Below are positions 231 through 9,003 of a DNA stretch of 20,946 nucleotides, one piece after another. Location of the stretch: positions 1 through 20,946 of the forward strand of contig DATKYS010000040.1 in assembly GCA_035528375.1 (NCBI GenBank). The letters run 5' to 3'. The stretch is from a bacterium. GTDB taxonomy: Bacteria; RBG-13-66-14. Numbering within the stretch: position 1 is the first letter of the stretch; each line of letters begins with the position of its first letter. Both the position numbers and the translations under genes were made by a program. Under the pieces are notes generated by a model. That model searched no databases and had not been told where the DNA came from. It was given only the letters and a program-made list of their open reading frames with translations.

Positions 231-367
231 GCCGCATCGCCGTCGTCGGCTCCTCGATCCTGGACGTGGCGGTGGTCACGCCGCGCTTCCCGCGCCCCGG
301 CGAGACGGTTCGGCCCGACGCGCTCGGCCTCTACCCCGGCGGTGGGTCCGGGTCCTACGCTCTTTGA
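227..367 (+). pseudogene. ribokinase/PfkB-family kinase, 5' fragment truncated at an AT-rich junction
   Basis: A TTG start at 227 overlaps the previous stop. The frame reads SRIAVVGSSILDVAVVTPRF, then PRPGETVRPDALGLYPGG, the N-terminus of ribokinase-like sugar kinases (beta strand with VGSSxxD, followed by the PGGKGANQA sugar-binding motif). After the second Gly of PGG (about 343) the homology stops: the next codons give GSGSYAL and a TGA at 365-367, and the DNA turns AT-rich. Only about 39 of the usual roughly 300 residues are kinase-like, and the remainder is nowhere in this window. The gene was probably cut by insertion of the neighbouring island or by a rearrangement; an assembly misjoin cannot be excluded. 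Confidence 0.72.
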
Positions 368-416
368 TGTTTATGGTTTTTGGACGAGTTGAGTTTAATT
401 GCGGTGTAGGTATTAC

Positions 417-439
417 AAAAAGGCCCGGCAAGGCCGGGC
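417..439 (-). terminator. Rho-independent terminator of the HNH gene
   Basis: Read on the minus strand there is a 7-bp perfect GC stem (GCCCGGC / GCCGGGC) with a 3-base CTT loop, followed by CTTTTT. It lies about 30 bases past the stop of the HNH gene at 469. Confidence 0.75.
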
Positions 440-468: not shown

Positions 469-714
469 TTAAGTAGTCGGATGAGGGCACCCATCTCTAA
501 TGCACTCACATTGATAACCTGCCCTCTCTAGAGCCTTTGTCTTTGTATCGTCGGAGAATTCAGGTGGTGGATTATCTGTAGATTCCCCATAAGAAGGTGT
601 TTTTTGGTGGCAAAAACTACATAAAACTTGAGCGTTTGCAAGCCCGTTTCCGCCACCACGGTTAATGTGATGTACTTCGAGGTCTTCTGTGTTCGTACAG
701 CGTAGGTTAACCAT
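469..714 (-). CDS. Small HNH-family protein with a circularly permuted-looking zinc/HNH domain
   Basis: 81 residues. I start at the ATG at 714 because TAAGGAG lies 6 bases upstream; an upstream ATG (834) would add a run without HNH similarity. The N-terminal half carries the HNH core: CTNTEDLEVHHI (residues 6-17), an Asn-rich GG-N-LANAQ step, and LCSFCHQKT with CxxC at 32-35. The C-terminal half reads KALERAGYQCEC...GCPHP (60-79), which in ordinary HNH proteins comes before the LEVHH core. Joining the end to the start would rebuild a standard domain order. HNH proteins are metal-dependent DNA nucleases found in mobile elements, restriction systems and phages; nuclease activity here is inferred. 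Composition is lower in GC than the chromosome. It stands alone on its strand and has its own terminator. Confidence 0.7.
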   Translation of the reverse strand: MVNLRCTNTEDLEVHHINRGGGNGLANAQVLCSFCHQKTPSYGESTDNPPPEFSDDTKTKALERAGYQCECIRDGCPHPTT

Positions 715-1016
715 AATCGACTCCTTAAAATTGCCTGCATAGAGGATGGGCAGGGGTGGTGCCCCGGCCCAGGGAACGAACAGGGAAGGGAGATACGGAC
801 TCCCCGCCGCGCGGCCAACACCACGCCAGACCACGGCCTGCTGCCCGTCCCTAACTGTGGAACTTATGAATCTTAGCAGGTCCTAGAAGGTCCGTCAAGG
901 GCCGGGGAGATACCTTGAAAAGTCCCATTACCCACTGGGGGCTTTTACGGTAGCGCATATGGGCGCCGGGCCGTCCATGCCCACGCGGGAGGAGCTAAAT
1001 ATTTTTTAAAAGGAAC
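715..1016. other. Non-coding mosaic stretch inside the island
   Basis: I see no convincing gene here. The part at 740-850 is GC-rich and chromosome-like; the rest is mixed. A hairpin-like element at 918-946 (AAAAG-CCC ... GGG-CTTTT arms) could end transcription in either direction, but the stem is interrupted. The upstream extension of the HNH frame across 715-834 lacks family similarity and is taken as non-coding. Confidence 0.4.
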
Positions 1017-1071: not shown

Positions 1072-1626
1072 ATGAGTAATACAGAGAAAGAATCAAAGCC
1101 TTATCAGATAAGAAATCCATTCACGTTAAAAAGATATGAAAATTTAATGATTTATTTTCAAAGTGAAATAACCTCTCTTACACAAAGGACAACAGCTTTA
1201 TTATCAATTTCTATAGCAATAATTGCAGCACCTTTCTATATAACTTTTTTACAAATAGGAAAATTTGATACTGTTTGTTTCGATAATAATTTTATTTATT
1301 CATTATGTTTTATAGGTTCCCTCTTAACATCTTTCTTATCAATTATATTTCTCTTTTGGTCTGGATTTTCATATTTAGAGACAGTAGGACCCTACGCTTC
1401 TTTTAATATGGAAATACCAAGTGATAAGAGTATTACAGATGATTATCAAGAGAATAAAGAAATTGAAATATATAAATTGTATAGGATGGCTATTTTGATA
1501 AATAATTTATTGAATTTTTATAATTATAAATTGAGTTTTTATGGTAAAGGTATAAGAAATACAAAAATAAGCGTAATAATATTACTTTTTTCAATTCTCT
1601 TAACCGTTGTTTCTAGCTTTCTCTAA
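1072..1626 (+). CDS. AT-rich hypothetical membrane protein, three predicted TM helices
   Basis: 184 residues, not assignable to a family with confidence. What can be seen: a charged N-terminal 40 residues with a helix RYENLMIYFQSEITSLTQRT, hydrophobic segments at about 41-60, 74-97 and 164-183, and a long hydrophilic, acidic loop between the second and third. The third segment runs to the C-terminus. This plan (amphipathic lead, two TMs, coil, final TM) is loosely like small membrane effectors of the SLATT or Pycsar type, but no nucleotide cyclase or sensor gene is next to it, so that is only a topological analogy. Codon use is strikingly AT-rich (many ATA, TTA, AAT) against a GC-rich chromosome, which points to recent transfer. 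It has its own promoter, and the next gene follows with a 12-base gap. Confidence 0.72.
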   Translation: MSNTEKESKPYQIRNPFTLKRYENLMIYFQSEITSLTQRTTALLSISIAIIAAPFYITFLQIGKFDTVCFDNNFIYSLCFIGSLLTSFLSIIFLFWSGFSYLETVGPYASFNMEIPSDKSITDDYQENKEIEIYKLYRMAILINNLLNFYNYKLSFYGKGIRNTKISVIILLFSILLTVVSSFL

Positions 1627-1638
1627 AAGGAGGTGTTC

Positions 1639-1824
1639 GTGAACGGGGAAGATGACAACAAAAGCTCTCCGCCGAAGAAACCAGACATTGACAAGGATAA
1701 AACAATTGTGAAAAAGGGAGTCCCTGATCCAAAACCGGCCCCTGCTCCTAGACCAACCCCTGATCCTAGACCAGCCCCTGATCCTAGACCAGCCCCTGAT
1801 CCTAGACCGAGGCACGGTGACTGA
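1639..1824 (+). CDS. Short proline-rich repeat protein
   Basis: 61 residues from the GTG at 1639. I prefer it to the GTG at 1633 because AAGGAGG (1627-1633) then sits 5 bases upstream; at 1633 the two would overlap. The first 35 residues are highly charged (EDDNKSSPPKKPDIDKDK). The rest is PAPRPT followed by PDPRPA repeats, ending RHGD. No signal peptide or TM helix is visible, so it is probably cytoplasmic and unstructured. The gene begins 12 bases after the membrane protein gene, shares its promoter and is followed by a terminator, so the pair forms a closed two-gene unit. Function unknown; proline-arginine repeats often act as spacers or binding tails. Confidence 0.6.
   Translation: MNGEDDNKSSPPKKPDIDKDKTIVKKGVPDPKPAPAPRPTPDPRPAPDPRPAPDPRPRHGD
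1741..1812 (+). repeat. Four 18-bp tandem repeats coding PxPRPx units
   Basis: Four head-to-tail 18-base units start at 1741, 1759, 1777 and 1795. Units two and three are identical; the first and last differ at a few bases. They stay in frame and give PAPRPT, PDPRPA, PDPRPA, PDPRPR. The identity at DNA level suggests recent slippage expansion. Confidence 0.9.
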
Positions 1825-1841
1825 AAAACACTGGATAGGCG

Positions 1842-8679: not shown

Positions 8680-9003
8680 CTAATCATCGTCCTTTGGCTT
8701 GCTGTCAACGTTTTTATTCCCCGATGATGTGACGTAACCTTTCAATTTCTTATCTGATTTGTCATTGTTATTAGCCCACTGCAATGGTCTTAGATTTGAG
8801 GGTTCGTTATTTTCTTCATTACAATCAATGTGGTCTATTTCCCAGCTAAAACTTGTTCTGACTTCTCCCTTTTTTCTTCCGTATCGTTCCCTTCTTATCC
8901 AAGCCCCACATTTATCTTTACGGACTCTATCTTTGTTGTGTCCCTTGACGACTGTTCCTTTCTCCCAAACAGCTTGTTTTTCTTTCTCTGTGAAGTTACC
9001 CAT
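8680..9003 (-). CDS. AT-rich HNH endonuclease-like protein inserted in the hdr operon
   Basis: 107 residues from the ATG at 9003, with AAAGGAG 6 bases upstream; it starts 29 bases after the hdrA stop. It matches a compact HNH family by its motif order: N-terminal EKQAVWEKGTVV, then KDKCGAWIRRERYG, then SWEIDHID (the DH pair of the first HNH strand) and PSNLRPLQWANNNDKSD, where the Asn residues supply the N and final positions. The last 20 residues are Lys/Asp-rich and unstructured. Codon use is AT-rich against a GC-rich operon, so it looks recently acquired. It is co-oriented with the operon and would be transcribed with it. Nuclease activity is expected from the motifs but not shown; it has no functional link to Hdr that I can see. 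Confidence 0.75.
   Translation of the reverse strand: MGNFTEKEKQAVWEKGTVVKGHNKDRVRKDKCGAWIRRERYGRKKGEVRTSFSWEIDHIDCNEENNEPSNLRPLQWANNNDKSDKKLKGYVTSSGNKNVDSKPKDDD

Follow-up and report, generated by a model that had tools for sequence, protein, structure and literature searches.

The protein encoded by a small gene in the DNA analyzed here (the window, a stretch of 20,946 nucleotides) appears to be the first case of natural circular permutation in the very common HNH family. HNH is among the commonest nuclease folds, being found in restriction enzymes, homing enzymes, Cas9 and IscB, and colicins. Judged by its motif and core, the product of this gene is an HNH protein, but the ordinary chain order is explicitly lacking. 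The protein is quite probably a free-standing HNH (His-Me finger) nuclease, spread by lateral transfer and circularly permuted in form, in which the helix and knuckle that open the domain lie behind the core and are joined to it by an 8-residue linker. Sequence comparisons demonstrated this order and its recurrence at three loci, and showed that each half is homologous to its counterpart in ordinary HNH domains and that the catalytic positions are intact. Homology of the opening half was established by profiles in the two bacterial members, and would be inherited from them for the third member, which comes from a phage. Our best reading of these data is an HNH nuclease that is rare and mobile and whose circular permutation is natural. 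The features concerned are as follows.

469-714, minus strand: permuted HNH gene, 81 amino acids plus stop, ATG at 714-712; the protein is MVNLRCTNTEDLEVHHINRGGGNGLANAQVLCSFCHQKTPSYGESTDNPPPEFSDDTKTKALERAGYQCECIRDGCPHPTT
721-726, minus strand: AAGGAG ribosome-binding site, identified from sequence, 6 nt before the ATG
413-439, minus strand: intrinsic terminator, a G+C-rich stem at 439-423 with 7 G-C pairs, then CTTTTTGTAA
870-898, minus strand: possible sigma-70-like promoter, TTGACG-17-TAAGAT, 9/12 with TG; weak, the number of such sites being near chance
586-702, minus strand: HNH core, residues 5-43, with the second knuckle cysteine C6, H15-H16, N27, C32-x2-C35-H36 and KTPSYG
562-585, minus strand: linker, residues 44-51, poorly conserved; the homologue in genome bin G003 carries a 3-residue insertion
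472-561, minus strand: relocated HNH opening, residues 52-81, consisting of the helix FSDDTKTKALERAGY and C69-E-C71-x4-C76-x-H78-P-T; AlphaFold helix at 55-65
343-1950, no strand: variable island holding the permuted HNH gene; it interrupts the start of a sugar-kinase gene on the left and ends before tRNA-Ala on the right

An earlier, sequence-only reading of this DNA had located the gene correctly at 469-714 and had left out the strand, which is minus (714..469). The good ribosome-binding site and own terminator that it claimed were both recovered. The G+C content of the gene was 46%, versus 63% in the window. When the protein was compared with HNH models, residues 5-43 scored 50.7 bits against a core profile and were aligned by hhalign with template columns 26-67 (probability 98.5%), and residues 52-76 matched the segment that normally opens an HNH domain, namely a helix and the first zinc-knuckle cysteine. 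PF01844 scored 20.8 bits with the window protein alone (0.6 below its cut-off) and 21.7 bits, above the cut-off, when in-frame neighbours were included; the phage family PHROG 333 matched with an E value of 3e-10. Ordinary HNH proteins have two knuckle cysteines upstream of the hairpin, but in the bacterial members C6 alone precedes it. As we read the sequence, the missing first knuckle cysteine, together with the presence of the rest at the C-terminus, is the permutation itself.

The search for relatives with the same order that the sequence-only reading had proposed yielded two. One, in the same-genus genome bin G003 (L004:1495-1740), was 45% identical and was the sole full-length relative in 61 genomes searched. 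The other (L007:2974-3303), 43% identical and located on a 40.7-kb viral contig, was the only one found when 2.9 million viral contigs were scanned. Both homologues kept the swapped order, which is therefore present in open frames in three independent assemblies, one of them a phage; the permuted gene was present in 2/386 genomes. The order common to the three members reads C - HH - N - LC-x2-CH - T - G - linker - F - CEC-x4-C-x-H-x-T. All three members share the catalytic residues H15-H16, N27, and H36 (the His pair, the middle Asn, and the His after C-x2-C), and C6, C32, C35, C69, C71, C76, and H78 were invariant. Identity to the C-half of the window protein was 55% in G003 and 36% in the virus, and with the cysteines held fixed, 22 of 5000 shuffles were as similar as the phage C-half to that of the window. 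A scan of viral contigs for the motif CEC-x4-C-x-HPT gave four matches, all in frames without an HNH core and judged to be chance. When a natural-order profile was run on 292 further genomes outside the phylum, only ordinary HNH proteins were seen where matches were examined. Rotated queries against phages, plasmids, viral contigs, and the 386 genomes returned generic HNH matches only, and no close unpermuted relative was found.

To score the order itself, a profile was built from 19 HNH domains of ordinary order and every rotation of each protein was scored against it. The window protein rose from 44.3 bits as encoded to 60.2 bits when rotated, with the best cuts at 44-45 and near-best cuts at 43-49, and the G003 protein rose from 16.8 to 29.9 bits, with the best cut at 47 (42-47 near). 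Shuffled C-halves never matched the rotated score (0/300 for the window, 0/300 for G003). The viral protein showed no rotation gain (29.9 versus 30.5 bits at best), because its C-half has diverged beyond the reach of the profile and a separate CSC occurs in its N-terminus. When C-halves alone were compared with the ordinary-HNH profile, those of the window (at profile positions 6-26) and G003 scored 14.6 and 12.3 bits, respectively, and neither score was equalled in 1000 shuffles, whether the cysteines were fixed or free. The viral C-half alone scored 5.2 bits, which was matched by 23/1000 shuffles (24/1000 with cysteines fixed); across HNH profiles it scored 2.2-5.2 bits and was not recognized. 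Profile-profile comparison by hhalign assigned template columns 26-67 to the N-half and 10-26 (p 1.6e-5, probability 79%) to the C-half; at the two bacterial loci, the halves thus tile the HNH domain (profile positions 6-26, then 26-67).

The choice of profile proved to matter. The rotation check against Pfam that the sequence-only reading had recommended was uninformative: PF01844 gave 20.8 bits in natural order and 20.9-21.2 bits rotated, because both orders match model positions 3-43 of 47, which is the core half only. When the profiles covered the opening helix as well, rotation raised the scores of the bacterial proteins by 13-16 bits. Most PHROG HNH families rose with the rotated window protein (phrog_1271 from 18.5 to 28.8, phrog_8446 from 12.7 to 22.9) and a few fell, and the rotated query reached HNH proteins of phages with 90% coverage (E 2e-4), compared with 41% coverage (E 0.08) in natural order. 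Moreover, when six frames of 120 kb were scanned with a profile of the HNH opening, all 14 matches of at least 10 bits were genuine HNH openings, the bacterial C-halves included, although some of these true matches belonged to the training set; the window C-half scored 17.8 bits, and the best unrelated match 8.0. The circular-permutation reading thus survived the sequence tests, with rotation gain in the bacterial members, tiling halves, and the same order in homologues.

A peculiarity of the protein is that each half has its own copy of the second knuckle cysteine. The ordinary HNH domains L061-L063 read C-QAPG-C-TNTRF-LEVHHI, and the window reads R-C6-TNTED-LEVHHI; from these ordinary readings (GCTNTRFLEVHHI / GC-TNTRF-LEVHH), C6 can be assigned as the second knuckle cysteine. 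The end of the C-half, C69-E-C-IRDG-C76, has its cysteines spaced C-x6-C, as in the mycobacteriophage knuckle CQIRRPGC, which makes C76 a second candidate. The sequence-only reading had described the rebuilt domain as continuous and canonical. An HNH domain was indeed rebuilt, but the duplicated cysteine keeps it from being fully canonical and leaves the zinc assignment ambiguous. As to origin, a circular DNA intermediate and a tandem duplication followed by trimming had been offered as alternatives, and the presence of the cysteine in both halves fits duplication better. An ordinary HNH gene may have undergone an in-frame tandem duplication, after which translation would have come to begin immediately ahead of copy 1's second knuckle cysteine and to end immediately past that of copy 2, so that the cysteine stayed at both ends. 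With its doubled cysteine, the protein resembles a snapshot of the duplicate-and-trim mechanism that is invoked to explain permutations. In-frame duplication of an HNH domain does occur: L024:1096-1827 encodes a protein with two tandem HNH-like copies.

Structures were predicted by AlphaFold2 run with the three sequences. Confidence was modest, with a mean pLDDT of 72.8 for the window protein and 75.9 for the G003 protein, and the knuckle was the least certain part. Both models show the strands and helices of an HNH domain. In the window model, strands at 12-16 and 28-32 and a helix at 33-38 were followed by a helix at 55-65. Isolated DSSP bridges were located at 4, 15, 39, and 80 in the G003 model and at 18 and 42 in the window model. 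Because 15 and 39 have their equivalents in 18 and 42, residues 4 and 80 of the G003 protein may pair with each other, as we infer from the DSSP string, and this would bring the termini together. Searches with Foldseek and VIA-align using the two AlphaFold models gave no significant match; these null searches are uninformative, because sequential aligners are expected to miss a permuted domain. HNH proteins are among the weak viral matches from Foldseek (38 columns at 2.5 A, 41 at 1.6 A).

We propose that the C-terminal helix folds back on the core, such that C69 and C76 (or C6) would join C32 and C35 round one structural zinc, while the spare conserved residues C71, H78, and C6 or C76 may seal the new termini, perhaps round a second metal. 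The protein would then nick or cut DNA like other small HNH enzymes, its gene being most likely a free-standing mobile nuclease gene. That the permutation is natural and functional, with the knuckle contributed by the C-terminus and the extra ligands (C6 or C76, C71, H78) closing the termini, possibly with a second metal, we hold to be rather likely. A domain-swapped dimer, in which the halves complete each other between chains and a working domain is rebuilt in trans, would be compatible with every sequence result, and the linker is short (8 residues). Many HNH enzymes act as dimers. However, nothing measured prefers such an arrangement in trans over folding back in cis, and in the G003 model the bridges at 4 and 80 tentatively suggest that the termini meet within one chain; we consider a dimer of this kind rather unlikely. 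Somewhat less likely again is a truncated HNH core accompanied by a separate C-terminal zinc element (e.g., a DNA-binding helix-plus-knuckle) that merely resembles an HNH opening and leaves the core uncompleted. CEC-x4-C-x-H-x-T together with C6 would supply enough ligands for a metal site of its own, and the phage C-half is unrecognizable as an HNH opening. Nevertheless, the bacterial C-halves match HNH openings specifically, which is exactly the part that the N-half lacks, and the core alone, with C32, C35, and C6, has too few ligands for a normal site.

Two further explanations were weighed. In one of these, the gene is a functionless relic of a broken tandem HNH pair, a decaying first copy followed by the beginning of a second, truncated one. 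HNH duplications in tandem do occur (L024), and the second knuckle cysteine occurs twice. However, the homologues keep the order, the frame, and the end points; between the window and G003, the C-half (55% identical) is conserved at least as well as the core (45%), and third codon positions differ more than first and second ones, which is not the behaviour expected of a relic. The gene also has its own ribosome-binding site and terminator. Each bacterial locus contains exactly one opening, with no second core copy around the gene in any frame, and neither a hidden opening upstream of the permuted gene nor a second core downstream was found in any frame. The sole other core-like match in the window, at 9.9 bits, was a separate HNH gene at 8683-9003. 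With a single opening, no second core nearby, and a C-half kept by the homologues, the second, truncated HNH copy that the sequence-only reading had raised against its own proposal was not encountered, and a relic is very improbable. An assembly or annotation artefact (a missed upstream start, a frameshift, or a chimera) deserves mention, in that the assemblies are MAGs and the gene lies ∼500 bases from the contig end. For the in-frame stretch upstream, a GTG at 834 could serve as a start, but this stretch has no cysteine and no HNH opening, no hidden opening exists upstream in any frame, and in G003 a stop codon lies four codons before the ATG. Because the same order was obtained in three separate assemblies, an assembly artefact, which the sequence-only reading had also allowed for, is excluded, and the likelihood of an artefact of any of these kinds is negligible.

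The surroundings of the gene differed at the three loci. Identity between the window and G001 (93%) ended at base 342, inside the sugar-kinase gene, and synteny with G002 resumed at 1950, just before tRNA-Ala. The exact ends of the island are uncertain, because G002 is a gapped scaffold and the contig of G001 stops close to the junction. The sugar-kinase-like gene start at 231-366 (plus strand) is broken off by the island near base 343 and continues in G001. The island also contains a very A+T-rich gene for a probable membrane protein of 184 amino acids (1072-1626, plus strand), divergent from the HNH gene and with no Pfam or PADLOC match, and an 18-base tandem repeat encoding PDPRPA-like units within a 63-amino-acid reading frame (1722-1829, plus strand). 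An imperfect 22-base repeat (82%) of the tRNA-Ala 3' end, at 1873-1894 and 2014-2035, is a possible old integration scar that would mark the right edge of the island. Elsewhere in the window, a second small HNH-like gene of ordinary order (8683-9003, minus strand; 107 amino acids, A+T-richer, with a weak HNH_3 match) sits between hdr-type genes and was matched in none of six relatives from the genus and family.

In G003, the permuted gene was found at a different site, beside frr, and was directly preceded by a gene for a 360-amino-acid protein with an N-terminal signal-like segment and of no known family (L004:395-1477). In the phage, it fills the gap between a C5-methyltransferase gene and a gene for a 355-amino-acid protein, on the strand opposite to both; ORFs further along this contig look like terminase subunits. 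Apart from the phage C5-methyltransferase, no neighbouring gene belonged to a Pfam or PADLOC family hinting at function. The permuted gene is thus an isolated insertion at unrelated sites (the kinase/tRNA-Ala island, the frr neighbourhood, and the phage gap), and its distribution, which is patchy, isolated, and independent of site, is consistent with a nuclease gene that is free-standing and mobile. If the permutation is true, it shows that the knuckle of an HNH domain can come from the far end of the chain, and it offers a ready-made permutation point for HNH domain engineering.

Among known systems, both halves of the protein match ordinary small phage HNH endonucleases of the PHROG 333 type, such as gp1 of Mycobacterium phage Rockstar/Fred313 (RAAGYRCQIRRPGC...TDVDHI...CSRCH). 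These enzymes have an RAGYxC-x6-C opening and an HNH core, like the two halves of the permuted protein, but the latter has the reversed half order, an extra CxC and HPT, and a doubled second knuckle cysteine. The HNH domains L061-L063, from bacterial proteins in the phylum of G038 (RCQAPGCTNTRFLEVHHITPRSRGG), have a nearly identical core motif, CTNT-x2-LEVHHI; they differ in their ordinary order and in that they mostly lie within larger proteins. In NCBIfam and PADLOC, the core was matched best by the HNH domains of IscB and ZorE, but the NCBIfam scores were far below the family cut-offs and the partner domains are absent from the permuted protein. The sequence-only reading knew of no described permuted HNH nuclease, and in agreement with this, no permuted HNH or His-Me finger was found in the open-licence papers searched. 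Natural permuted treble clefs are few, and those named in the accessible text of PMC4999995 (Rds3p, UBR-box, Cse1, Pus10, Ada, and the prolyl-tRNA synthetase C-terminal domain) include no His-Me finger nuclease. According to the same text, the cuts in their chains fall within the knuckle, the loop joining knuckle and hairpin, or the hairpin loop, and some may be convergent. In these permuted treble clefs, as described there, the zinc knuckle has been moved relative to the beta-hairpin and helix, as it has in the permuted HNH protein.
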